Of a stretch of DNA of 59,109 bases, positions 13,477 to 56,193 are shown one piece after another. The notes beneath the pieces are model-generated. The model saw nothing but the letters and a program-made list of their open reading frames with translations. It did no database searches and was not told the origin of the DNA. Position 1 is the stretch's first letter. Each line of letters opens with the position of its first letter. This DNA is from Sphingobacteriaceae bacterium (GTDB taxonomy: Bacteria > Bacteroidota > Bacteroidia > B-17B0 > Aurantibacillaceae): the NCBI GenBank assembly GCA_947480015.1, contig CANKBS010000022.1, positions 1 through 59,109 on the forward strand, written 5' to 3'. The position numbers and the translations under genes were made by a program.

Positions 13477-15099
13477 TTAGCCTATCATTTGCAGAAAACT
13501 AATCTCCTTGCCGGTTAAAAAACGGTGTTTGCCTCGGGGCAGATCCTTTTTCGTAAGTCCCGCAAATACCACGCGATCGAGCTTTAAAATATCATAGCCC
13601 AAGTGTTCGAAAATACGACGTACAATGCGATTACGCCCACTGTGAATCTCAATGCCCACTTCTTTTTTTCCTTCACCAACAAAGGCAAGATCATCGGCTT
13701 TAACAACACCATCCTCTAACTCAAGTCCTTCTATAATGGCTTTAAAATCTTCGGGCTTTAAGCCTTTATTTAAGCTTACATGGTATACTTTTTTTATACC
13801 GAATTTTGGATGTGTTAGTTTTGTTGTCATCTCACCATCGTTGGTGAATAACAATAAACCGGTTGTGTTTCTGTCTAGTCTTCCTACCGGGTAGATGCGC
13901 TCTCTGCAGGCGCCACTTACCAATTCCATAACCGTTTTACGCTCCTTTGGATCGTCAACAGTAGTAATATAATCTTTAGGTTTGTTGAGTAACAGATACA
14001 CTTTTTTCTCTGTTCTTACCGAGGCATCCCCAAAGGTTACTTTATCCGTTGGGTTTACTTTAGCGCCCAGCGTGGCAACCACCACGCCATTCACTTTTAC
14101 CACGCCACTTAAAATCAGGTTATCTGCCTCGCGACGAGAAGCCACGCCGGCATTAGATAAATATTTATTCAAACGAATCAATCCATCAGAGCTGGCTTGT
14201 TTTTTAACTGGTGCCGGACCTCTTTGTTTTTTAGCATCGAAGCGCTGATTTTGTGAAAAGGCTTTGCCCTCTTCAAACTCATCGTATTTTACACGACGGG
14301 TATCATCACCTTCGGTAACTTTACGCGGTTTGGTTAAACGGCGTTTAGGTGATTTATTGCCATCAGAGCCCGGTTTATCTCGATGCCCGCCTTCTGGTTT
14401 TTTAAATTTGGCGAACCCATCATCCTTATTAAACGGTTTTTTGTATGGCTTTTTGTCTTTTGAATCAGACGCTCTCCTGCGCGGTTTGTCGGCAGAACTG
14501 CTGTCCTTATCAAAATCCTTCTTAAAAGGCTTACGTTCTTCTGAATCAGAAAAAACACGTTTTGGTCGCTCGCTACTTCTTTCTTCGCGATCAGAGCTAA
14601 ATTCACGGTTAAATGGTTTGCGTTCGTCTGAACCCGAAAAACTACGCTTTGGGCGCTCACTGTTCTTTTCTTCGCGATCGCCGCCAAACTCACGTTTAAA
14701 TGGCTTGCGCTCTTCTGAACCCGAAAAACTGCGCTTTGGCTTATCCCCGTATTTTGAATCTTTGTTTGTACCAAACGATTTTTTAAATGGTTTCTTTTCA
14801 TCTGAATCGCTAAAAGCACGTTTCGGACGGTCGCTATAAGAGGGCTTATCTTTCGAAAAATCTTTCTTGAAGGGTTTGCGCTCATCCGATCCGATGTAGG
14901 TTCTGCGTGGCTTTTCGGTGCCGGCAGGCCCTTTATCATCGCGATAACTTTTATTTTTGGTGAACGAGCGTTTTGTTTTATAATTTAGGGGTTTTGATTT
15001 TTCTCCACCCTCCGAAGCCCTTTTAGGCTTGCGGTTAGGGCCGCCTCTGCCCGATCTGCCCTTGTTTTCTGATTCAGATCTATTGTCGAATTTACTCAT
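13477..15099 (-). CDS. RluB/RsuA-family pseudouridine synthase with long repetitive basic N-terminal arm
   Basis: Residues about 306-540 form the enzyme. It has an S4 RNA-binding domain (IRLNKYLSNAGVASRREAD) and the RsuA/RluB catalytic domain with GRLDRNTTGLLLFTNDGE, where the aspartate (about residue 409) is the nucleophile, and a C-terminal RNRIVRRIFEHLGY motif. This branch modifies 23S or 16S rRNA. The first 300 residues are low-complexity, rich in K, R, S, D and E, and contain five to six near-repeats of 27-29 residues built on RPKRSFSGSDERKPF. Such basic arms are common in Bacteroidota RluB proteins and probably bind RNA or ribosomal precursors. It lies 46 bases upstream of glmS on the same strand. 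Confidence 0.92.
   Translation of the reverse strand: MSKFDNRSESENKGRSGRGGPNRKPKRASEGGEKSKPLNYKTKRSFTKNKSYRDDKGPAGTEKPRRTYIGSDERKPFKKDFSKDKPSYSDRPKRAFSDSDEKKPFKKSFGTNKDSKYGDKPKRSFSGSEERKPFKREFGGDREEKNSERPKRSFSGSDERKPFNREFSSDREERSSERPKRVFSDSEERKPFKKDFDKDSSSADKPRRRASDSKDKKPYKKPFNKDDGFAKFKKPEGGHRDKPGSDGNKSPKRRLTKPRKVTEGDDTRRVKYDEFEEGKAFSQNQRFDAKKQRGPAPVKKQASSDGLIRLNKYLSNAGVASRREADNLILSGVVKVNGVVVATLGAKVNPTDKVTFGDASVRTEKKVYLLLNKPKDYITTVDDPKERKTVMELVSGACRERIYPVGRLDRNTTGLLLFTNDGEMTTKLTHPKFGIKKVYHVSLNKGLKPEDFKAIIEGLELEDGVVKADDLAFVGEGKKEVGIEIHSGRNRIVRRIFEHLGYDILKLDRVVFAGLTKKDLPRGKHRFLTGKEISFLQMIG
14401..14913 (-). repeat. In-frame tandem repeat, about 87-bp unit, inside the pseudouridine synthase gene
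   Basis: Codons for residues about 63-233 repeat a 29-residue unit (RPKRxFSxSxERKPFKxxF plus a variable charged linker). Three central copies are exactly 29 residues; outer copies are 27-28 and more diverged. The copy number is likely to vary by recombination between strains. Confidence 0.75.
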
Positions 15100-43567: not shown

Positions 43568-43576
43568 TTGTTGACA

Positions 43577-45727
43577 ATGAAAAAAATCAAAGCGATCGTT
43601 TTGTTATTTTGTTTGACCGGTCTTGGTTTTTCACAAAGTATTGAATTTGTTAAGACCAATTTTCCTGGGAAAAAAGACGAATTAAAAGAGGCTATTCATA
43701 AACTCGCCATTGGTACTGACTTTTACGCTCAAGGACGAAGCCAATATAACGATTTTAGAAAGGCCTATTTTATTGAACATAAATACTTTCCTGTTGGACA
43801 TCACGACACCCGCAAGGCCGGTTATGCTGAATTTAGGGCCGCTCTTTCCCCACTTAGCGATGCCCATCGTTTCAATCCCAATAATGCTGTGCTTAATTAC
43901 ATGCTTGGTTTTATTTGGTTTAGTGCGGACCCAGGTAGCAAAGAAACCTTAAGGTTTTTTGAAACCGCTTATACCCTAAACCCTGACCTAAACCACGATA
44001 TTGCATATTGGCTAGCCTGGACTAATCAGTTAAATACACAATGGGACAATGCTTTAAAATATTACAACATATATTTAACTAGCTTGCTGCCAAAAGCTAA
44101 AATGAATGTGGCTTTTATTGACGATGTGCGTAAAAAGATTTATGAATGTGAGAACGGGAAAAATCTTAGCGCGGAGCCTGAGCGGGTTTTTGTTGAAAAT
44201 CTTGGGCCCAATATTAACACCTCTTACCCCGAATACGGCCCGTCAATTTCAACAGACGAGGCCACCATTTTTTTCACTTCTCGCAGGCCAAACTCGATTG
44301 GCGGCAAAAAAGATGAAACCGATAATGGTTATTTTGAAGATGTTTATTTTTCTGAAAAGGTTAACGGCAAATGGTTGCCTTCTAAGCCGCTTAGTAAAAA
44401 CGTAAATACCGAAAGTCATGATGCAACGGCCGGACTTTCGCCCGACGGAAGTAAGCTATATGTTTACCGCTCCTTGGGTAACGACGGGGGGGATTTATAT
44501 GAAACCGTTTTGTTTGGGATGGATTGGGAAGAACCCGATCATATGAACAAAAACATCAACACGAAGTATCATGAATCTACGGTTAGTTTAAGTTTTGATG
44601 GAAAGCGGCTGTATTTTGTCAGCGATAAAGAATCGGGCTATGGTGATGCCGATATTTATTATTCTGATATGGATATTAATGGTGAATGGGGGCCGGCTAA
44701 AAACCTTGGTCCTGAAATAAACACCAAATACGGCGAAGAGGGCGTCTTTATTCATCCCGACGGAACAACTTTATACTTCAGCAGTAAAGGCTATAATTCG
44801 ATGGGGGGTTATGATGTTTTTAAAAGCTCGCTTTTAGATGGCAAATGGCAGAATCCGGTTAATCTAGGCTACCCAATTAATGGACCAGACGATGATGTTT
44901 TTTTCGTTGTTAGTGGAAGTGGGAATAGGGCTTATTTTGCTTCCGCTAAATCAGGCGGCTTTGGCGAGAAAGATCTTTATAAAATTACTTTTCTTGGGCC
45001 CGAAAAACAGCCTTTACTAAATAGTCAAGATCAACTTTTAGCGGTTATAGATAATCCCATTAACAATCTAAAAATAGAAAATGCTGTTGAGGTGAAATCA
45101 TCAAAATTAACCCTTCTTAAAGGAATCGTTTCTGACGAGAAAACAGAAAAGCCTTTAGAGGCAAGTGTTGAGTTGATTGATAACGAGAAAAACGTTTTGC
45201 TTGCCACCTTTAAATCGAATAGTGTTAGCGGTAAATACCTAGTTACCTTGCCAAGCGGCCACAATTATGGTATAGCGGTTAAGTGCCGTGGTTATCTTTT
45301 TCATTCGGAAAATATAAATCTTCCAGAAGCTACTGACTATCAAGAGTTTACGCTAGATGTTGAAATGAAAAAAATGGAAGTGGGCAATTCGATTGTTCTT
45401 AAAAACATCTTTTTTGATTTCGATAAGGCCAGCATCAGGCCTGAATCGCAGAACGAATTAAATCGTTTGGTTAAGCTCCTACGCGAGAATCCGGCTATAA
45501 AGGTCGAAATCGGCAGCCACACAGACGATATTGGTTCAGTTGAATATAACCTTCAACTAAGTGAAAATAGATCAAAATCTGTTGTAGAATATCTTATATC
45601 GAAAGGTATTCCAACAAGCCGATTAGTGGCGAAGGGATATGGCGAAACAATCGCACTTGATAAAAACGATACCGAAGAAGGTCGCCAACATAATCGTCGT
45701 ACCGAATTTAAAATACTTTCCAAATAG
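43577..45727 (+). CDS. PorE-like OmpA-family protein: TPR, PD40 propeller, carboxypeptidase regulatory-like and OmpA domains
   Basis: ATG 43577 gives a signal peptide (MKKIKAIVLLFCLTGLGFSQ); a frame open from TTG 43568 is not used. Domains in order are a TPR-like region (residues about 25-205), a PD40/WD40-like six-bladed propeller (about 215-480, with PDGSKLYVYRSL, FDGKRLYFVSDK, PDGTTLYFSSKG), a carboxypeptidase-regulatory-like domain (about 515-600), and an OmpA peptidoglycan-binding domain (IFFDFDKASIRPESQNEL to the end). The order matches PorE, which links the type IX secretion machinery to peptidoglycan. This fits the two T9SS cargo proteins in the window. Confidence 0.88.
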   Translation: MKKIKAIVLLFCLTGLGFSQSIEFVKTNFPGKKDELKEAIHKLAIGTDFYAQGRSQYNDFRKAYFIEHKYFPVGHHDTRKAGYAEFRAALSPLSDAHRFNPNNAVLNYMLGFIWFSADPGSKETLRFFETAYTLNPDLNHDIAYWLAWTNQLNTQWDNALKYYNIYLTSLLPKAKMNVAFIDDVRKKIYECENGKNLSAEPERVFVENLGPNINTSYPEYGPSISTDEATIFFTSRRPNSIGGKKDETDNGYFEDVYFSEKVNGKWLPSKPLSKNVNTESHDATAGLSPDGSKLYVYRSLGNDGGDLYETVLFGMDWEEPDHMNKNINTKYHESTVSLSFDGKRLYFVSDKESGYGDADIYYSDMDINGEWGPAKNLGPEINTKYGEEGVFIHPDGTTLYFSSKGYNSMGGYDVFKSSLLDGKWQNPVNLGYPINGPDDDVFFVVSGSGNRAYFASAKSGGFGEKDLYKITFLGPEKQPLLNSQDQLLAVIDNPINNLKIENAVEVKSSKLTLLKGIVSDEKTEKPLEASVELIDNEKNVLLATFKSNSVSGKYLVTLPSGHNYGIAVKCRGYLFHSENINLPEATDYQEFTLDVEMKKMEVGNSIVLKNIFFDFDKASIRPESQNELNRLVKLLRENPAIKVEIGSHTDDIGSVEYNLQLSENRSKSVVEYLISKGIPTSRLVAKGYGETIALDKNDTEEGRQHNRRTEFKILSK

Positions 45728-46504
45728 AAGTTGCCCCAGCTCAACTTGTTTTCTTAACGGCGTCTAAAAACAATAGGGCAGGTGTTATTGCCCATTATTC
45801 GAATTTTCACCTATTAATCCGTTTATGGCTTTAGAACACCAAGGTCCGCTTTAGTAATGAATAAGATTAGCTGCGTTAATTGTAAACACGGCAAGGAAAT
45901 GAGGGTTATAAAGGTGGCGCCCTGTCTGCGTTTTAGTATTGTATAAAACAGTTAAAGTTTAATAAGCGGCGGGATTAATAACAAACACTTGCGCATATTC
46001 GAAAAGCAAGTTTCGGATCCCTACTTAGTATTCACTTGTGCGTCTTTTTGTGCTTGGTTAGTCTTCTTTTTGATTAGCCTAATTGTTTCGTGACGCAGTT
46101 CCTGCATTCTTCATTATTTCCTATATATTCATTGTCAGATACCGGTAGTTGAAAGTTGTCATTTTGAAATGATATTCTCGGGCAATTGTGTTTGATTATG
46201 TTGTACGCCGTTAAATCTGAATATATGCCCCCTTTGATCTTTCTTCACTCATTTAGCCTTTCATTCAATTTTAAATCACCTCAATTTATTTAAGTTAAAC
46301 GCCATTGCATTTGTTAACTAATCGTGATAAGGCATCTGTAAATCCTCAGGCATCACGCAAGCGGATTGTCTTTCTGATTTTTGTCGAATTGAAGCTGCGA
46401 AGTACGCTCGTCCGCTATGCACTTGCCGGCACAATTTAAATGTCCCTCCAATGACCTATCAATCATATTCTATCCATAAAAGCAGCGAAAATGTATTTGT
46501 ATTA

Positions 46505-46520
46505 CGTTCCACGTGAAACA
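46505..46520 (+). other. parS-like ParB-binding site 1
   Basis: CGTTCCACGTGAAACA differs from TGTTCCACGTGAAACA only at the first base. It lies in gene-free DNA. Confidence 0.75.
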
Positions 46521-46907
46521 TTTCTTTATTTGTTGAATCGGAGAAATTAGAAAAACGAAGCAGTCTGGTGGATAGATTGGTTTTAATTGTAGTCTATATC
46601 GTGACACGCTACCTGGTCCTTTTCGGGTAGCCAAGCATAAGGCGCTTAGCCACGAAATGGTTAAGCGCAGAGGGCAAATCATCCGTCTCCTAATCTCCGG
46701 AGGCGAATACTTATCACTAAACACATCACCATATTTGGTGTTCGCGAATAACTGGGTACATTTATCCAGCTTTTCTTCTTTCACTCAAATCACCTCTAAT
46801 TTGTTTAGCCTATGCTTTTCCACTTTATTTGAATATAGCCATTTGAGAAAAAAGCCTGTATTGTAGCATTAGCAGTAATTAAGATATTTGCGATAGATAA
46901 ACAACCA

Positions 46908-46923
46908 GGTTCCAAGTGAAACA
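46908..46923 (+). other. Degenerate parS-like site
   Basis: GGTTCCAAGTGAAACA matches the parS 16-mer at 14 of 16 bases; the central CACGTG core is changed to CAAGTG, so ParB binding may be weak or lost. Confidence 0.4.
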
Positions 46924-47034
46924 ATATATTTCTCGAGGGCTGCAAACAAGCACCGGTAGATTAAGCCTTGCATTCTGCCCCTCCTGGTGGATAAAGCCAA
47001 AACTCACCAGGCCCTTGCCTAATTGACAAAAGAA

Positions 47035-47059
47035 AACCCCGAATGATTAGTCCGGGGTT
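47035..47059 (-). terminator. Intrinsic terminator of the methyltransferase gene
   Basis: AACCCCG (47035-47041) and CGGGGTT (47053-47059) pair around an 11-base loop. On the minus strand a T-rich tail (TTTTCTTTTG) follows. It lies 24 bases past the methyltransferase stop. Confidence 0.75.
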
Positions 47060-47082
47060 GTTTAGCATTCTCTAATAGCGTT

Positions 47083-47967
47083 TTATTGATGTTTAAAGAC
47101 ATAAATAAGGCTTGAATAGTTGCCGGTGGTGTTTGCCCTTGTGTTTGAGCTTAATCCGCTTAAAAAGGCTTTGTAATAGTTAATTTTATTGTGCTTATAT
47201 TTTTCGCTTAACATACTTACATAAAAACTATCAAATTTCATGGGCTTGGTTTCAACAAGCTTAAACCCGTAATTGGACAGAAGTAAACAAAGCGTTTTTG
47301 GCTCAAAATGATATAAGTGTCGAGGCACATCATAAGCGGCCCAAAAGGATCCATACTTATCTGCATCATGCGACTTATAATTAGGAACTGCAATTATAAG
47401 GGTACCATCGCTACTTAATTTTGATTTAAATAAACTTAAGGTCGCGTCCAATTCTGTGACATGTTCCAGAACGTGCCACAAACTGATGGCGTCAACTTGT
47501 TTTCCTTCAAGGGACCCTGACAAGTCATCGTTGTTTTGAGCAACATCCAAACCCTGCCCGAGCGCTAATCTTCTTGCGCCCGAATCGGGTTCCATTCCCA
47601 TTGTTTTCCATCCAGCCTCAGAACAAGTTTTTAAAAACAAACCGGTTCCACAACCATAATCCAAAATTGTTCCACGTGAAACATGAGCGGATAACAAAGC
47701 AAGTTTGTTTTTTAAGGTATAATTTCGAACCAAGTGGTAGAGCTTTGCAATTAATCCCCTCTTAGTGTTAGAATGTGAAATGTAGTCCTCGGACTTATAA
47801 TATTCACCTAAAGAAGCTAAATCTGGAAGTGGGTTTGTAAATACAAAATCACAAGATGTGCACTTTGAGAGTTGAAAAGTTTTATGACTAACTGTATGAT
47901 CAATGCAGCTAATAAAGTTTTTGAAGGTTTTACTTTTGCAAACCGGACACTCGAGATAATTATACAT
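47083..47967 (-). CDS. Class I SAM-dependent methyltransferase with N-terminal zinc-ribbon
   Basis: The protein has 294 residues. The N-terminus has a zinc-ribbon-like set of cysteines (CPVCKSKT...CTSCDFVFTNP), then the SAM-binding motif ILDYGCGTGLFLK, WHVLEHV, and a Rossmann core with IIAVPNYKSHDADKYG. This 'methyltransferase type 12' layout is common in cell-wall and glycan gene sets; the substrate is not identifiable. Its motif I codons overlap a parS site (47668-47683), so the DNA carries two signals. It ends at a terminator and starts 24 bases from the mnmG stop. Confidence 0.85.
   Translation of the reverse strand: MYNYLECPVCKSKTFKNFISCIDHTVSHKTFQLSKCTSCDFVFTNPLPDLASLGEYYKSEDYISHSNTKRGLIAKLYHLVRNYTLKNKLALLSAHVSRGTILDYGCGTGLFLKTCSEAGWKTMGMEPDSGARRLALGQGLDVAQNNDDLSGSLEGKQVDAISLWHVLEHVTELDATLSLFKSKLSSDGTLIIAVPNYKSHDADKYGSFWAAYDVPRHLYHFEPKTLCLLLSNYGFKLVETKPMKFDSFYVSMLSEKYKHNKINYYKAFLSGLSSNTRANTTGNYSSLIYVFKHQ
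47668..47683 (+). other. parS site 2 (perfect), inside methyltransferase gene
   Basis: TGTTCCACGTGAAACA is an exact copy of the parS sequence, located in coding DNA and encoding (minus strand) HVSRGT just before the SAM-binding motif. Confidence 0.85.
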
Positions 47968-47975
47968 AATAGATT

Positions 47976-47991
47976 TGTTCCACGTGAAACA
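47976..47991 (+). other. parS site 3 (perfect), ending at the mnmG stop codon
   Basis: A second exact TGTTCCACGTGAAACA lies in the 24-base gap between mnmG and the methyltransferase gene. It ends one base before the mnmG stop codon (47992-47994). Confidence 0.85.
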
Positions 47992-49893
47992 TTAACGGCC
48001 CAAATGGATTAATAGGACTGATACATCCGCAGGGTTAATTCCTGAAATTCGACTTGCTTGTCCAATTGTACCTGGTTTAAATTTTTTTAATTTTTCCTTT
48101 GCCTCGGCACCTAAACCGCCAATGGTATCAAAATTAAAATCGGGATTAATACTATAATCTTCCAATCGTTTCAGCTTGTCGGCATTCTCCTTTTCTCGTT
48201 CAATATACCCTTCATACTTCATGAGAATTTCAGCCTGCTCTAAGGTTTCTTTATCGTACGGCCCCATGGCGTCTTTTAAATTCGTATCCCATGGCAACAA
48301 ATCATTGATTCCAATGTTGGGGCGCGAAACGATGTTGAAATATCGTAATTTTTGATTAATAGGGGCAGACCCGATCGATTCTAAATATGGATTAAAATCA
48401 TTTGGTTCGGCACTTGTGTTTTTAAAATAAGAAATAACCTTGTTGTAACTAAACACTTTTTCGGTTACCCTATTAAAGCGTTCTTCACTTGCTAGACCAA
48501 TGGCTCTTGAAATTGGGGTTAGTCTGACGTCGGCATTGTCCTGTCTCAACAATAAGCGATATTCAGCACGCGATGTAAACATGCGATAAGGTTCATCGGT
48601 ACCCTTCGTAACTAAATCATCTATTAATACACCTATGTATGCTTCGTAGCGATGTAAAACCAACGGTTTCTTTTCACTAATTTTTAAGTGTGCATTAATA
48701 CCAGCCATTAATCCTTGACTTGCCGCTTCTTCATATCCGGTTGTTCCATTAATTTGCCCGGCAAAATATAAATGCTCGACTAGGTGAGTTTCGAGTGTAA
48801 GTTTTAATTGTGTTGGCGGGAAGTAATCATATTCGATAGCGTAACCGGGGCGGAACATCTTTGCCTTTTCTAGACCCGGGATCAACCTTAATGCCTTTTG
48901 CTGAACATCTTCTGGGAGCGAAGAAGAAAAACCATTTAAATAAATCTCAACGGTATTCCACCCTTCGGGTTCTACAAACAACTGATGCCTTTCACGTTCG
49001 CTAAAGCGCGTAATTTTATCTTCAATGCTTGGACAATATCTTGGACCAAGGCCTTGAATTCGTCCCTGAAACATGGGCGATTTTTCAAAACCTGTTTTTA
49101 ATATATCATGTACTTTTTGATTTGTATAAGTAACATGGCAAGGAACTTGTTTTTTAATGGTATCACCAATAAAAGGGGAGGTGTTATCGAGATAAGAAAA
49201 CTTATCAATAATTTGATCTCCGCCTTGTTCTTCCATTTTTGAGTAATCCAGCGATCTGCCATCTATCCTTGGTGGGGTGCCCGTTTTCATCCGGCCACTT
49301 TCGAATCCTAATTGGACTAAGTGTTCCGTTATCCCGTAGCTTGCCGATTCCCCTGTTCTACCTCCGCCAAGTTGTTTTTCTCCAATATGGATAATTCCAT
49401 TTAAAAACGTTCCGTTGGTGAGCACAACTGCTTTGGCTTTAAACGCCATTCCCATTCCGGTCACGATTCCTTCTACTCGTTTTCCGTCCTCTGAAACAAT
49501 AAGACGTTTAACCATGTCTTGCCAAAAATCAACATTTGACGTTTGCTCTAACATTTCGCGCCAGGTTTGTGCGAATAACATACGATCATTTTGTGTACGC
49601 GGACTCCACATGGCAGGACCTTTACTGCGATTAAGCATACGGAACTGAATGGCACTTTTATCAGACACTATTCCACTATAACCGCCGAGCGCATCAATTT
49701 CACGAACAATCTGTCCTTTGGCAATTCCACCCATGGCAGGATTACAGCTCATTTGGGCAATTGTTTGCATATTCATAGTAACCAGCAAAACTTTTGAACC
49801 AAGGTTAGCTGCCGCCGCCGCCGCTTCACAACCGGCGTGTCCGGCGCCAACAACAATTATATCGTAGGAATTTTCCAAGTAATTTTTTTGCAA
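47992..49893 (-). CDS. mnmG: tRNA uridine-5-carboxymethylaminomethyl(34) synthesis enzyme MnmG (GidA)
   Basis: Full-length (633 residues) FAD-binding protein with the N-terminal [22 protein letters not shown] dinucleotide fold, [22 protein letters not shown], the MnmG motif [12 protein letters not shown], and a C-terminal helical domain ending in [23 protein letters not shown]. With MnmE it installs the cmnm5 group on U34 of several tRNAs. No ATG start exists; TTG at 49893 opens the frame but TTG at 49878 (MENSYDII) fits the family start better, as a promoter -7 element overlaps the former. mnmG is an origin-proximal gene in many bacteria. Confidence 0.97.
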
Positions 49894-50504: not shown

Positions 50505-50936
50505 TTAAATATCAATTTTTTCAATTCTACTTTGATGTCTCCCCCCTTCAAATGGCGTGTTTAAAAAAATATCAACACATTTTTTTGCTTCTTCCAGTGA
50601 AATATACCTCGCGGGTAGTACAAGTATATTTGCATTATTATGTTGCCTGGATAATTTTGTGATTTCCGTATTCCAGCATAACGCTGCTCTTATTCCTTTG
50701 TGTTTATTAGCACTCATGTTTATTCCATTGCCACTTCCGCACATGAGTATTCCCAATTGAACTTCATTTGTTAATACGGCTGTCGCAACAGCATGCCCAA
50801 AGTCCGGATAGTCTGCTCTTTCTGTTGAATAACAGCCCTTATCACTAATTTGAATATTTAAGTCCTTTATGTAATTACGTAACTGTTCTTTTAATTCGTA
50901 ACCTGCATGATCGGATCCAATGGCTAAAGTCATCAT
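50505..50936 (-). CDS. rpiB: Ribose 5-phosphate isomerase B
   Basis: The protein starts (M)MTLAIGSDHAGYELKEQLRNYI and contains the LGILMCGSGNGINMSANKHKGIRAALCW block with the catalytic cysteine and HNNANILVLPARYISLEEAKKCVDIFL, the RpiB/LacA-LacB signature. About 144 residues is the family length. It converts ribose-5-phosphate and ribulose-5-phosphate in the pentose phosphate pathway. An in-frame upstream extension (to 50960) is not conserved; the tandem ATGs at 50936 and 50933 are both suitable. Confidence 0.95.
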   Translation of the reverse strand: MMTLAIGSDHAGYELKEQLRNYIKDLNIQISDKGCYSTERADYPDFGHAVATAVLTNEVQLGILMCGSGNGINMSANKHKGIRAALCWNTEITKLSRQHNNANILVLPARYISLEEAKKCVDIFLNTPFEGGRHQSRIEKIDI

Positions 50937-50957
50937 ATGTAATTCAAATTTAAGATT

Positions 50958-50965
50958 CAAAAGTA
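50958..50965 (-). promoter_or_regulatory. Bacteroidota -7 promoter element for rpiB
   Basis: The minus strand reads TACTTTTG, a TAnnTTTG match, 22 bases upstream of the rpiB ATG. Confidence 0.4.
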
Positions 50966-51486
50966 CTCAAAAACTTAATTAACACTGATAAAATAACACA
51001 TTGATACTGAACCTTTCAAAAATCAAGTATTCAACATTACTAGTGTTAGTTACTTTTTTTATAGTTAGTAACTGTTTAAACTATTATGGTGTTAAATCAA
51101 ATCTGATATGTGCTTGTAATAATATTACTAATTTCAAATTAATCTTATTAGAATTCATCTTAATTTATAAACTCTCTTTTAGCTTTACTAACATCTATTT
51201 TATAACATTACTTATTAAGAATGATAACTACTAACTATTGTTAATAGTAATTACATACTTATTAATCAAGCCTTTAATTTTGTAATTTTGTTTAATACTT
51301 GTTCACTTCTATTTATAAACCAAAATAACAACAAATAGTAGTGGTATTTACTAACCATATTAACAAGCTATATGTAAGTACATTTTTTTTTTAAAAATTA
51401 AAAAGAAAGAAATTGTATCTTATATAATCAGGTAATTGAATTTGTTTCATTTTTGATTTATTTCATTTACATTTAATGTGACATCA
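50966..51486. other. Very AT-rich gene-free leader region upstream of the MORN/kinase operon
   Basis: About 500 bases without a credible gene; a plus-strand frame at 51001-51234 is low-complexity and starts with TTG. Two tandem copies of TAATTTTG (51275-51282, 51283-51290) match the -7 element and could serve the downstream operon, with a leader of about 190 bases. Composition is visibly more AT-rich than most of the window. Confidence 0.4.
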
Positions 51487-53157
51487 ATGAGGATTCTAAT
51501 TCAATATAGCGTAATTTTATTACTACTGATTGTTTTTTTAAAAAACAATCTTATCGCACAGACTACCAATCCAAATGGTTATAATAAATTTTATTATGAG
51601 AATGGTAAATTAAGCAGCGAAGGTACTATGAAGGATGGTAAACCGGATAGTTATTGGAAAAATTATTATAAAAACGGAAAATTAAAAATCGAAGGTAATA
51701 GAAAAAACTTTCAATTAGATTCCATATGGAAATTTTATGACGAAAAAGGAAGAATTTCGAAATCGATACATTACCAATTGGGAAAAAAATCTGGCATAAC
51801 AGCTGTTTATGATTCTCTTGGAGTAATGCTTAGTTCGGAAAATTATATAAATGATTATAAAGAAGGCTTAAGTAGGACATTTTATAAAAATGGTAAGACA
51901 AAAAGTATCGTACCTTACGTTAAAGGGAGACAAGAAGGGATAATGTATGAATATAGTCAGGATTCATTAATAACGTCAATTTCTCATTACACCGGTGGTA
52001 TTTTACAAGGTTATGAAAAAATTAATCAAAAAGACGCCTTAAATAAAAAACAGGGTATTTGGAAAGAATTTTATAATGATAATGTATTAAAAAAGGAACA
52101 GCGATTTAATGATGATTCGTTAGATGGTTATGTAAAAGAATATAATGTAAAAGGAAACTTAATACAAACTAAGAAATACGATAATGGTAAACAAATATTT
52201 AATGCACCAGAAATAGCAAATGTTACGGTTTATAGAGAACTTTTTGATGATGGCACGCTTAAGTATGAAGGTGTTTATAGTGACAGTATTCCAATAGGTA
52301 CACATTATAAATATATTCAAAAAATGCGCTGTGATAGCAGTATTTTTAGAAGGGACGATACCACGGATATATTTATTAAAAGACTGGTATGTAGAAAAGT
52401 ACCTATACCCGATAGCGCATTAGAATTTTTTGATGGCGTGGTTATAGGACGCGGAGCTGTTGATAGTGTAAGAAATAGAATAGGTTTTTGGGTTGAATAT
52501 CATAATACAGGTGAATTTAGATCCAAAGGAATATATAAACAGGGTTATAGGGTAGGTGATTGGGAGTTTTTTTATGCTTCAAGCAAATTAGAACAAAAAG
52601 GTCAATATGATAAAAAAGGGCGTGAGCAAGGTGCCTGGAAATGGTATTATGAAAGCGGTAAATTAATGCGGGAAGAAAATTATATAAATGGAAAAAGAGA
52701 AGGCGAATTAATTGATTATGATGAGGATGGTAAGATAACATTACAAGGTAATTTTATAGATAATAAAAAAGAAGGAAAATGGCGCTATGAAACACCGGAG
52801 TATTTAGAGTTTGGTAATTATGTGAATAATGAACCGGATAGTATATGGAAAAGTTATTATATGCCAGGAAAGATTAAGTTTTTTGAAGGTAAATTTCAAG
52901 CCGGAGAACCTGTTGGATTACATCAAGCGTTTCATCCTAATGGGGTTAGAAAATATATTGGTACTTACGTGAGTGGTATGAAAGATGGGGATTGGAAATA
53001 TTTTGATGAAGAAGAGTTTAATTACTTGATTATTAATTATAAAAATGATATTGAAATAAAATGGCAAGGTGAAAAAATAAGACCTAGTTATGAAGAAAGT
53101 TTGCGTACTTATAATATTAAAATTAACGAAAATAAAACGCAAACTATAAGAAAATAA
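51487..53157 (+). CDS. Secreted MORN/YwqK-repeat protein (second copy), first gene of a two-component operon
   Basis: ATG 51487 gives a signal peptide (MRILIQYSVILLLLIVFLKNNLIAQ). The rest (556 residues in all) is a chain of MORN/YwqK repeats of the type YYxNGKLKxEGxxKxxxxDxxWKxY. It is clearly related to the protein at 20.9-22.7 kb but has a more AT-rich sequence. The stop is four bases before the histidine kinase start, so it is translated with the kinase and response regulator; it might bind a signal for the kinase (inference). Annotators may call it a YwqK antitoxin, but no toxin is near. Confidence 0.85.
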   Translation: MRILIQYSVILLLLIVFLKNNLIAQTTNPNGYNKFYYENGKLSSEGTMKDGKPDSYWKNYYKNGKLKIEGNRKNFQLDSIWKFYDEKGRISKSIHYQLGKKSGITAVYDSLGVMLSSENYINDYKEGLSRTFYKNGKTKSIVPYVKGRQEGIMYEYSQDSLITSISHYTGGILQGYEKINQKDALNKKQGIWKEFYNDNVLKKEQRFNDDSLDGYVKEYNVKGNLIQTKKYDNGKQIFNAPEIANVTVYRELFDDGTLKYEGVYSDSIPIGTHYKYIQKMRCDSSIFRRDDTTDIFIKRLVCRKVPIPDSALEFFDGVVIGRGAVDSVRNRIGFWVEYHNTGEFRSKGIYKQGYRVGDWEFFYASSKLEQKGQYDKKGREQGAWKWYYESGKLMREENYINGKREGELIDYDEDGKITLQGNFIDNKKEGKWRYETPEYLEFGNYVNNEPDSIWKSYYMPGKIKFFEGKFQAGEPVGLHQAFHPNGVRKYIGTYVSGMKDGDWKYFDEEEFNYLIINYKNDIEIKWQGEKIRPSYEESLRTYNIKINENKTQTIRK

Positions 53158-53161
53158 AACC

Positions 53162-53650
53162 ATGAATTTAATTTCAAAACAGAAATTTCAGGTAGACAGC
53201 AAAACATTAGAGGCGTTACCTGTTGCTGTTATTTTATTAAATTCAAAAGAAGTGTTGTTTCTCAATAAAGAAGCAATAAAGCTCATTAACACGGAGCTGA
53301 AAGCAAAACCAGTATTTAAAAAAAATGGGGCCACTAATAAATTATTACTTAAGGGAGAGTTTAATAAGATAAGAAAACAGGCTGAAAAAAATAGCGATAA
53401 GGCCGTTGTCTTAAAATTATCTATAAAAGATTTAAAAGGGAATAATATACTTGTTGAGGCTAAAACTACTAAAGTGCCATTTCAAGGGAAAACTGTATTT
53501 CAACTTATATTTTCAGAAATCAAGTCGGAAAAGACAGAATCTAAAGAAGCAAATGAGTTAATAAAAATAATCAGCCAAAACAGCCTTGATGTTATTTTTA
53601 ATTTCAGTTTTTATCCCGATACGCATGTAAAATTTATCAGCGAATCCTGA
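53162..53650 (+). CDS. N-terminal part of a multi-PAS sensor histidine kinase, cut by a one-base frameshift
   Basis: This 162-residue frame has one complete PAS domain (residues about 10-120) and the start of a second (NSLDVIFNFSFYPDTHVKFISES), then hits TGA at 53648. Reading on in the next frame gives LKTVLGFSPKEIYANP, exactly the rest of that PAS domain. So the gene continues in the next ORF and one base, probably a C in TCCCTG, is missing near 53645. The joined product would have 1010 residues. Confidence 0.8.
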   Translation: MNLISKQKFQVDSKTLEALPVAVILLNSKEVLFLNKEAIKLINTELKAKPVFKKNGATNKLLLKGEFNKIRKQAEKNSDKAVVLKLSIKDLKGNNILVEAKTTKVPFQGKTVFQLIFSEIKSEKTESKEANELIKIISQNSLDVIFNFSFYPDTHVKFISES

Positions 53651-53658
53651 AAACCGTT

Positions 53659-56193
53659 TTGGGGTTTAGTCCTAAGGAAATTTACGCAAATCCTTTAATA
53701 ATTCGGGATCAAATTTATAAGGACGATCAAAAGTATATTATTACCAGTAAAAAGGATTTTTTAAAGTTGTCAAAGAATAATCATGAAAGTAAAGCGCTAG
53801 TTAGATTTATAAACAAAAAAAAACAAAACAAATATCTTGAAATAATTGCTAATCCTGTTTACGATTCAAATTCCAATATGACGGGAATTATTGGAAGCAT
53901 ACGCGATGTTACCAAAAGAAAAGAAACAGAGGAATTATTAATTGAAACCAAAAACAAATTTGATCTCATCACTAATAACGGCAATGATATTATTGCGTTT
54001 TATACCTATTACCCGGTTGAGAAATACCTTTATGTAAGTCCAAATATTAAGAAGATACTAGGATTTGATAATAAGGAATTATTATTAGATGATGATTTTT
54101 TCACAAAACGATTAGTGAGTAATAAGGAAGAGTTTTTAAAATCCGAAAAATTAATTAGGGGCTTTCAGAAAAACGATATAGTCAAAAACCACCACTTCTC
54201 ATTTAAGATTTTAAATAAATCGGGAGAAGATGTTTGGCTGGAGAACAACCTCGTGCCAATTACTAATTCGGAAGGAAAAATAGAGTTTTTCATTAACATC
54301 TTACGCGACATAACCGAGCAGAAAGAGGCGGACATAGAAATAGAAAATCAATACATCAACTACAGAAACCTTCTGGATAATTCACCTGTGGCTTACGTTA
54401 TACACGATCACGGCACGTGTTTATACGTAAATAACGCTTTACTTAAGTTATTAAAATTAAAAAGTAAAGCTCAGATTTTAGGGAAGTTTACACTGGATTT
54501 TTTTGTTGAAAACGACAGAAAAACAGGTCTTCAAAGAATTCAGGAGGTGTATAAGAATAAAAACGCTAAAAGGAAATTTCATAATTATACCGTTCGCGAT
54601 CAGGAGGGAAACTTAGTGGAGGTAGAAATAAAATCGGTTTCTATTAAGTTTAACGACAAAGACTGCGTTTTGTCGTTGGTAAATAATTTAAGCGAGCAGC
54701 GGTTAAGGGAAAAGGAAAAGTTACGGGTTTTACTTACCGAATCAGATAATATTCAATTACAAAAAGAAATTAAAGAAAGACAGGAAGCTGAAAAAAGTTT
54801 AACTGAAAAAACCGCGCATTTAAGTTCTATTTTTGAAAGCTCTACCCACCTCATTTGGACCGTTAACAGTCATTTACAGCTTACCTCCTTTAATCAAAAT
54901 TTTCACAATATTGTTAAATTGCAACATGGGATTAGTGTAAAGCCCGGGCATGTTATTGACGAACATTTATTAAAAAACCGGGAGGAATACGTTAGTTTCT
55001 GGTACCCAAAATATGCCGAAGCCTTTAAAGGAAATAAATTAGAATTTGAAAAAGAAGATTTTAATGAGGGCATGGTTTATCGGAAAATTTTCATAAACCC
55101 GATATACAATAAAAATAGAACCATCAGGGAAATAAGCTGTATTGCAAATGATATAACTGATTCTAAGATTTATGAACAAAAGCTGTTAAGTCAAACCGGA
55201 AAACTAAGTGCGATTTTCGACAGCAGCCACCATTATATTTGGACGATAAACAGGGAGGAAAAATTAACCTCCTTTAATAAAAACTATTATGATTTGATAA
55301 CTGCGCTTTATAATACGAAGCCTTTTGTTGGACTTGTTTTAAATCGCGGCGTATTATCAAACGATGTTGAGTATACGGGGCTCTTGCAGTTTCATTACGA
55401 CAAGGCCTTTAATGGTCTAGCCACTAATTTTGAAATAGAAACAAATGATAAGGATTATAAGAAGGTATATTTGGAAATATTTTTAAATCCAATTTATGAG
55501 AATGGTAAAGTGGTTGAAGTCAGCGGGATTGCCCATAACATAACCGACAAAAAACACGTGCAACAACGTATGGAGATTTCATTAAAGGAAAAGGAAATCT
55601 TGTTGAAAGAAGTTCATCATCGCGTAAAGAATAACATGCAAGTAATTAGCAGTATTTTAAATTTACAGTCATCATATGTTTCAGATGAATACGCCTTAAC
55701 CTTATTAAAAGAAAGCCAGAATAGGATAAAAACAATGGCTTACATTCATGAGAGTTTGTATCAGAACAAATCATTTACTTCGGTTGATTTTTCTGATTAT
55801 GTTTATACGCTAGTTAATAATATTGTACAATCTTACGCCGCTTCAAGCGATAAAATTAAACTGGAGTTGGATATAGAAAAGGTAAGCCTGTCGCTTGACA
55901 GCTCCATACCGGCCGGCCTGATCATTAACGAAATCATTACTAACGCCATCAAGCATGCGTTTCCGGGCGACAGAAAAGGGGTGATTACTTTTAATTTAAG
56001 ATGCGAAAATAATTTTGTAATTTTAGAGTTGAAGGACAACGGCGTAGGCTTTGCTTCCGGTATCGATTTTGAAAACAGCCACACGCTGGGCTTACAACTG
56101 GTTAATACCTTGGTTGAACAAATTGAAGGCAAACTAAAATTTAAGTCAGATAAGGGCAACGGCACGGAAGTGTTAATTACTTTTAAAATGTAA
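53659..56193 (+). CDS. C-terminal part of the split sensor histidine kinase (PAS domains, HisKA_2, HATPase)
   Basis: The frame is open for 844 codons with no further lesion. It holds the rest of the second PAS domain and four more (DVTKRKETEE, DITEQKEADIE, NDITDSKIYEQ and HNITDKKHVQ mark their ends). A HisKA_2 domain follows (KEVHHRVKNNMQVISSILNLQS, phospho-accepting His at about 55615-55635), then an ATPase domain with NEIITNAIKHAFPGD and DNGVGF. This is a cytoplasmic, soluble-looking kinase with no membrane helix. TTG 53659 is only the first start in this frame; the protein's real start is probably 53162. Confidence 0.88.
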   Translation: MGFSPKEIYANPLIIRDQIYKDDQKYIITSKKDFLKLSKNNHESKALVRFINKKKQNKYLEIIANPVYDSNSNMTGIIGSIRDVTKRKETEELLIETKNKFDLITNNGNDIIAFYTYYPVEKYLYVSPNIKKILGFDNKELLLDDDFFTKRLVSNKEEFLKSEKLIRGFQKNDIVKNHHFSFKILNKSGEDVWLENNLVPITNSEGKIEFFINILRDITEQKEADIEIENQYINYRNLLDNSPVAYVIHDHGTCLYVNNALLKLLKLKSKAQILGKFTLDFFVENDRKTGLQRIQEVYKNKNAKRKFHNYTVRDQEGNLVEVEIKSVSIKFNDKDCVLSLVNNLSEQRLREKEKLRVLLTESDNIQLQKEIKERQEAEKSLTEKTAHLSSIFESSTHLIWTVNSHLQLTSFNQNFHNIVKLQHGISVKPGHVIDEHLLKNREEYVSFWYPKYAEAFKGNKLEFEKEDFNEGMVYRKIFINPIYNKNRTIREISCIANDITDSKIYEQKLLSQTGKLSAIFDSSHHYIWTINREEKLTSFNKNYYDLITALYNTKPFVGLVLNRGVLSNDVEYTGLLQFHYDKAFNGLATNFEIETNDKDYKKVYLEIFLNPIYENGKVVEVSGIAHNITDKKHVQQRMEISLKEKEILLKEVHHRVKNNMQVISSILNLQSSYVSDEYALTLLKESQNRIKTMAYIHESLYQNKSFTSVDFSDYVYTLVNNIVQSYAASSDKIKLELDIEKVSLSLDSSIPAGLIINEIITNAIKHAFPGDRKGVITFNLRCENNFVILELKDNGVGFASGIDFENSHTLGLQLVNTLVEQIEGKLKFKSDKGNGTEVLITFKM

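Follow-up and report, generated by a model that had tools for sequence, protein, structure and literature searches.

A Fast-Changing Spacer Bordering a parS Region and a Probable Replication Origin between rpiB and a MORN-Repeat Gene in a Genus of Bacteroidota

Gene Organization of the Locus

The window, i.e., the whole stretch of 59,109 nt analysed here (G000:C22:1-59109), belongs to a genome of 66 contigs and 3.77 Mb. In the part under study (Table 1), an OmpA/PD40 gene is followed by a long spacer, a methyltransferase gene, mnmG (gidA) and rpiB, and a gap of 517 bp separates the latter from a divergently transcribed gene encoding a MORN-repeat protein. A terminator-like hairpin follows the mnmG and methyltransferase genes. 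In and around the MORN gene (51,001-54,000), the GC content is very low (28-30%) and the G-over-C skew strong (0.28-0.29), sharper than elsewhere in the arm. The relatives of mnmG that carry a name, nearly all of which bear that of Bacteroidota or of a genus within it, assign the window to this phylum. Genes 66-68% identical to the mnmG of the window are also present on two MAG contigs titled Azovibrio and Limnohabitans (L032 and L050); because of this identity to a Bacteroidota gene, the two titles look like those of mislabelled bins.

Table 1. Genes, sites and proposed elements of the locus, with their positions in the window.
Feature	Position	Strand	Remarks
OmpA/PD40 gene	43,568-45,727	+	Left flank of the spacer
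Spacer	45,728-47,082	.	Convergent intergenic region at the parS region edge, read here as not oriC
parS, 1 mismatch	46,505-46,520	.	Only site with ≤1 mismatch inside the spacer
parS-like, 2 mismatches	46,908-46,923	.	Inside the spacer
Intrinsic-terminator-like hairpin	47,035-47,059	-	Match to the consensus only, with 9 pairs and a T-rich tail
Methyltransferase gene	47,083-47,967	-	Right flank of the spacer
parS, exact	47,668-47,683	.	Within the methyltransferase gene
parS, exact	47,976-47,991	.	Between the methyltransferase gene and mnmG
mnmG (gidA)	47,992-49,893	-	TIGR00136, 833 bits
rpiB, ribose-5-phosphate isomerase B	50,505-50,960	-	Pfam PF02502, E 4.4e-57; conserved origin neighbour
Proposed oriC	50,961-51,477	.	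517-bp gap from which rpiB (-) and the MORN-repeat gene (+) diverge
Variant DnaA-box-like site TAATTAACA	50,976-50,984	+	Pattern match
Variant DnaA-box-like site TAACTAACA	51,044-51,052	-	Pattern match
Partial variant box TTACTAAC	51,064-51,071	-	Pattern match
Variant DnaA-box-like site TTACTAACA	51,185-51,193	+	Pattern match
Conserved oriC core (R1 match)	51,208-51,320	+	Window among the 15 training sequences
Partial variant box TTACTAAC	51,348-51,355	+	Pattern match
Partial variant box ATATTAAC	51,357-51,364	+	Pattern match
Candidate unwinding element	51,369-51,468	.	15% GC, the minimum of the window at the 100-bp scale; putative function
MORN-repeat (MORN_2) protein gene	51,478-53,157	+	Pfam PF07661; other conserved origin neighbour

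The Gene-Free Spacer

The spacer had been put forward as a candidate replication origin (oriC) in the original prediction. Its gene-free nature is real, since the list of open reading frames and the Pfam, NCBIfam and Rfam collections give no recognisable gene in it, and, by eye, no gap among the listed ORFs of the window is longer, as had been claimed. The sole ORF of at least 90 aa that it contains (46,470-46,784, minus strand, 104 aa) matches nothing in Pfam or NCBIfam at E ≤ 0.001, and a search of Rfam over 45,600-47,200 gave zero matches at E ≤ 1. The inward orientation of the flanking genes is also correct, the OmpA/PD40 (+) and methyltransferase (-) genes converging on the spacer, while mnmG, described as adjacent, is nearby but one gene further, beyond the methyltransferase gene.

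The sequence signals on which the prediction relied are present in the spacer but in numbers expected by chance. Six sites differ from TTATCCACA at no more than two positions (one 8/9 and five 7/9) versus 4.6 expected, and 95 of 300 Markov shuffles contain at least as many; with up to one mismatch there is one versus 0.35 expected (reached in 91/300 shuffles). The duplicated element, a AAATCACCTC repeat, is indeed found at 46,273 and 46,787; exact 10-mer repeats in the spacer are, however, two versus 1.9 expected, and 147 of 300 shuffles reach this number. Both canonical DnaA boxes and the duplicated AAATCACCTC element were rejected as origin signals, being at chance level. As for parS, a one-mismatch and a two-mismatch site fall inside the spacer, and the two exact sites lie just outside it.

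The comparison with relatives gives a similar picture: none of the 30 other genomes of the genus matches the DNA of the spacer at E ≤ 0.001. Against the homologous gaps of four relatives, the best matches (in G017, G022 and G019) have E values of 0.002-0.03 and fall on the two parS-like sites of the spacer, the other matches being short, with E of 0.097 or more. Because congeneric DNA matches are lacking, the best matches to relatives are the parS sites, and parS sites cluster here, the spacer is regarded as a variable, fast-changing one bordering the parS region.

It could also be a decayed gene, which would be compatible with that reading. In fact, the homologous place of the relative G001, whose gene order is conserved and whose genome is in a single contig, measures 3.4 kb and carries, at the same position, an ORF of 826 aa on the minus strand; however, when 35 translated pieces of the spacer were compared with loci including this region of G001, a single match at E ≤ 0.1 was obtained (L028, 18 residues, E 0.066), and decay from a gene appears unlikely. 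By eye, the 826-aa ORF (L119 10056-12536) is rich in repeats, and its C-terminus may be of the type IX secretion kind.

That the spacer itself is oriC can be given almost no credence. Apart from its length and its one-mismatch parS site, this assignment could count on Roseivirga and other Cytophagales, in which a cluster of canonical boxes is located on that side of mnmG, beyond a methyltransferase and/or a Big_5 gene, and on the Cytophagales locus L004, whose skew minimum is at that cluster. Against it are the chance level of the boxes, the lack of congeneric matches among 30 genomes, the convergent flanks, and the cumulative GC-skew minimum, which is found 4.5 kb away in the window and at the site between rpiB and the MORN gene in G001 and in a second relative, G046. 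The original prediction had thus pointed to the right neighbourhood, with the skew minimum, the parS cluster and mnmG all near, but to the wrong gap.

A Proposed oriC between rpiB and the MORN Gene

The replication origin is most likely the gap between rpiB and the MORN gene, about 4 kb to the right of the spacer. This gap has a GC content of 20.3% and includes the GC minima of the window at scales of 100 and 200 bp as well as most of its lowest-GC 500 bp (51,046-51,545); it therefore holds an AT-rich element of the kind looked for in oriC, a part of which is a candidate for the site of unwinding. The cumulative GC-skew minimum, calculated on 59,109 nt with a right arm of 8 kb only, is at 51,572, i.e., 95 bp past the end of the gap. 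The main ORFs point away from the gap in 5/5 cases on the right side and in 19/35 on the left, where the gene strand bias is weak.

In two relatives with near-complete genomes, the local skew minima are within 0.3 kb of the homologous conserved core. In particular, in G001 (one contig, 4.60 Mb) the cumulative skew over a 100-kb stretch is lowest at 957,971, with the core match at 957,600-957,713, and in G046 (two contigs, outside the training set of the model described below) that over a 180-kb stretch reaches its minimum at 2,329,163, with the core at 2,328,758-871; both stretches were chosen around the candidate, and the rest of the two chromosomes was sampled. Among the sampled 20-kb stretches of G001, the skew sign fits this origin and a terminus near 3.3 Mb in 16 of the 19 non-straddling ones; the same fraction (16/19) was obtained for the non-straddling stretches of G046, whose terminus was taken as opposite, and the sign is the reverse in 3/19 stretches of each genome.

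The gap can be aligned in 15 genomes, from which R1, a sequence-only DNA model of the conserved core of ~117 bp, was built. When run on 32 genomes of the genus, R1 finds exactly one match in 29, 15 of which had not been used for training, and no match in G015, G024 and G068; a single conserved locus is thus present in 29/32 genomes, and an origin is proposed for an otherwise uncharacterised genus of Bacteroidota. The flanks of the 29 matches, some of which are cut by contig ends, include rpiB in 25 cases and the MORN gene in 27. In one MAG (SZAS-3, L002 1603-9801), the block P192-rpiB-gap-MORN-HK-RR is inverted relative to mnmG, and therefore the genes still point away from the gap on both sides.

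Being flanked by divergent genes, the gap must hold promoters, and AT-rich promoters are common; it could consequently be the regulatory region of both neighbours, with a skew switch occurring there by coincidence. This alternative is very unlikely. In G005 the core persists with mnmG in the place of rpiB, and in 7/15 loci (genomes G006, G018, G020, G007, G012, G013 and L002; loci L132, L134, L135, L136, L138, L150 and L002) it is kept although an extra ORF of ~1 kb on the plus strand is inserted between the core and the MORN gene; moreover, the core occurs in one copy per genome, and the nearness of the skew minima in G001 and G046 argues against a coincidence.

The parS sites support the assignment of the region. 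They were called with TGTTYCACGTGRAACA, which is taken here to be the 16-bp parS consensus; at ≤1 mismatch, there are three sites in the whole genome of the window, four in G001 (952,999-954,347) and four in G046 (2,321,613-2,325,487), and all of them are 3-7 kb from the R1 core. The reversed pattern, used as a control on the same three whole genomes, gave 0 matches. As in the chromosomal parS/ParB centromere, 16-bp sites are clustered beside the origin and the genome of the window encodes one ParB (TIGR00180, E 8.2e-56); nothing unusual was seen with respect to that system.

Variant DnaA Boxes

A cluster of canonical DnaA boxes is absent from the proposed oriC; the canonical pattern TTWTNCACA occurs once over the 15 gaps versus 1.7 expected, with 0 sites in the gap of the window. 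A different 9-mer, TWAYTAACA, which is close to the canonical TTATNCACA with C changed to A at position 6, occurs instead 32 times over the 15 gaps versus 3.3 expected (sd 1.7; maximum of 8 in 200 first-order Markov shuffles), figures that measure enrichment and not probability, since the 15 sequences are related and not independent; the box was also derived from the very sequences that it is meant to account for. This 9-mer resembles boxes with A at position 6 found in relatives. The gap of the window has three full TWAYTAACA sites only, together with partial ones (Table 1). As regards a DnaA-trio beside a box, inspected by eye, chance occurrences are likely in a sequence so rich in AT. A position-weight matrix trained by EM proved unspecific and almost a palindrome (14 hits in the proposed oriC, 9 in the spacer and 389 in the whole window at score 6), and explicit patterns were therefore preferred to it.

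The position of the origin, its conservation, the enrichment of the motif, the skew and the clustering of parS are computed properties of these loci, and from them a course of initiation can be proposed. DnaA would bind a cluster of TWAYTAACA boxes in and around the ~117-bp core and would open the adjacent DNA of 15-20% GC; the forks would then depart in both directions, generating the skew switch, and ParB would load at the parS sites 3-5 kb away and successively segregate the new origins. As a whole, the explanation in which the spacer marks the edge of the parS region and oriC is the gap beside rpiB, with variant boxes, is considered very probable. A search based on TTATCCACA would have failed in this genus.

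Comparison with Known Origins

An AT-rich origin beside rpiB/mnmG with parS is a known kind of object, and boxes with A at position 6 (A6) have already been reported. With the DnaA-dependent oriC described by the criteria of Ori-Finder and DoriC, the proposed origin shares the skew minimum, the AT-rich gap between divergent genes, the vicinity of mnmG, and repeated 9-mers close to TTATCCACA in the gaps of the genus; it departs from the norm in the A at position 6 and in the lack of enrichment of canonical boxes. In a report on a Flavobacteriaceae genome, the Ori-Finder origin is likewise located by mnmG (PMC12843772), and in Elizabethkingia Ori-Finder is reported to give an origin that has three TTATCCACA-type boxes (PMC8994065).

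A6 boxes are mentioned in other phyla. Mycoplasma hominis has two putative TTATTAACA boxes upstream of dnaA, a sequence shared with the putative DnaA box in both M. mobile and M. arthritidis (PMC2751442); TT(T/A)TCAACA was proposed as a mollicute motif in the phytoplasmas (PMC3322544); and one TTATCAACA box was predicted on the linear chromosome of Cyanothece (PMC4674748). These boxes have the same A6 but belong to other phyla, and those of the mycoplasmas lie beside dnaA; the Mollicutes might represent a parallel case. A lineage-specific change inside the 9-mer is also described for the Epsilonproteobacterial oriC, where the preferred change is T at position 5, whereas in the present genus it is A at position 6, and where DnaA residues 435 and 438-439 are named as possible causes (PMC5043019). 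Searches of openly accessible full texts gave no report of A6 boxes in Bacteroidota or of a link between residue 435 and position 6.

DnaA Residue 435 and Box Position 6 in Bacteroidota

The genome of the window has one DnaA gene. The motif HTTV/HSTV is absent from all the 31 DnaA loci of the genus that were searched, and it was this empty result that drew attention to residue 435 (in what is taken to be the E. coli numbering; equivalence was assigned by alignment to B. subtilis DnaA), which is Ala in the 30/30 loci of the genus that were viewed. Among the other Bacteroidota viewed, Ala435 is found in Flavobacteriaceae and several other families, Ser435 in Chryseobacterium/Kaistella, Sphingobacteriaceae and Cytophagales, and Thr435 in the one Chitinophagaceae genome and in some others. 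Residue 435 contacts the bases and, together with 438-439, is a possible determinant of specificity according to the Epsilonproteobacterial study cited above (PMC5043019).

Sites with C at position 6 (C6, TWWYNCACA) and A6 sites (TWWYNAACA) were counted in four sets of gaps, and enrichment was expressed over the Markov expectation. In this genus, enrichment is 0.5 for C6 and 4.2 for A6, and in 20 other Ala435 gaps it is 2.1 and 3.2, respectively; the values are 10.7 and 3.0 in eight Chryseobacterium-type gaps upstream of rpiB and 12.0 and 2.4 in seven gaps between Big_5 and TPR genes, but the Ser435 set is biased toward C6, since its gaps were noticed through box clusters or gene order. Because A6 is enriched in all four sets, the main change between them is the preference for C6. 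Ser435 was seen in 7/8 Chryseobacterium-type loci (all but L052) and in 7/7 Big_5-TPR loci; L035, L025, L043 and L048 (Ser435) and L054 were left out of the sets.

The 20 Ala435 gaps come from a survey of 48 genomes, in which 25 rows with less than 190 bp upstream of rpiB were set aside (18/19 of the Ser/Thr435 rows and 7/27 of the Ala435 ones) and two more had no DnaA match, which left for the comparison 20 rows with Ala435 and a single one with Ser435 (G073). Gap lengths in the survey, including that of G073, follow a rough rule based on stop-to-stop frames of 90 codons, and those of the Chryseobacterium-type gaps other than that of G073 were set by eye.

Upstream of rpiB, L033 and L073, which have Ala435 and are outside the enrichment sets, show 0 C6 sites and three and four A6 sites, respectively, and the Flavobacteriaceae locus L061 has seven TTATNAACA sites starting from 918, the skew of that locus being lowest at 1,266. 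A counter-example is L069, which has Ser435 and no C6 box in its gap. The box clusters of the Cytophagales are on the 3' side of mnmG, between the Big_5 and TPR genes (L004, L024, L074 and L079), and those of Chryseobacterium are upstream of rpiB, in the pgk-rpiB gap in L044. The proposed oriC resembles this Weeksellaceae-type origin (Chryseobacterium L014, L041, L044 and L045) in having a cluster of box-like sites upstream of rpiB; the difference is in the boxes, C6 being enriched ~11-fold and A6 ~3-fold in the Weeksellaceae, and in their DnaA, which has Ser435.

In the other Bacteroidota, DnaAs with Ser435 occur mostly alongside C6-rich origins and those with Ala435 alongside A6-rich origins. 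On a tree of 56/59 DnaA sequences (G005, G111 and G148 were left out), built with the column of residue 435 retained, this residue changes about three times among Ala, Ser and Thr, and the comparison thus amounts to at most two or three independent contrasts. From these data it can be proposed, with roughly equal chances of being right or wrong, that the DNA code of the initiator shifted in a broad branch of the Bacteroidota, the replacement of Ser/Thr435 by Ala accompanying that of C by A at position 6 of the box (TTATNCACA to TTATNAACA); the canonical box would have been abandoned in the present genus, while the Ser435 Weeksellaceae carry C6 boxes in the corresponding location, upstream of rpiB. 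Programs that look for origins by TTATCCACA would in that case place them wrongly, or overlook them, in these bacteria. If the link holds, it represents a testable one-residue shift of specificity in a nearly universal bacterial initiator, with natural variants of both sorts at the same chromosomal address.

The Runella locus L079 contains, between the Big_5 and TPR genes, a stretch (13703-14277) in which 500 bp include 13 matches to TTATCCACA with at most one mismatch, together with one unassigned ORF of 108 aa; it is a candidate canonical origin and may serve as a contrast case. Finally, short second ORFs similar to DnaA domain IV were observed in two genomes (G001:C1:1330448-1330648 and G041:C117:1203-1406), and they are perhaps stand-alone DnaA-C proteins of mobile elements.
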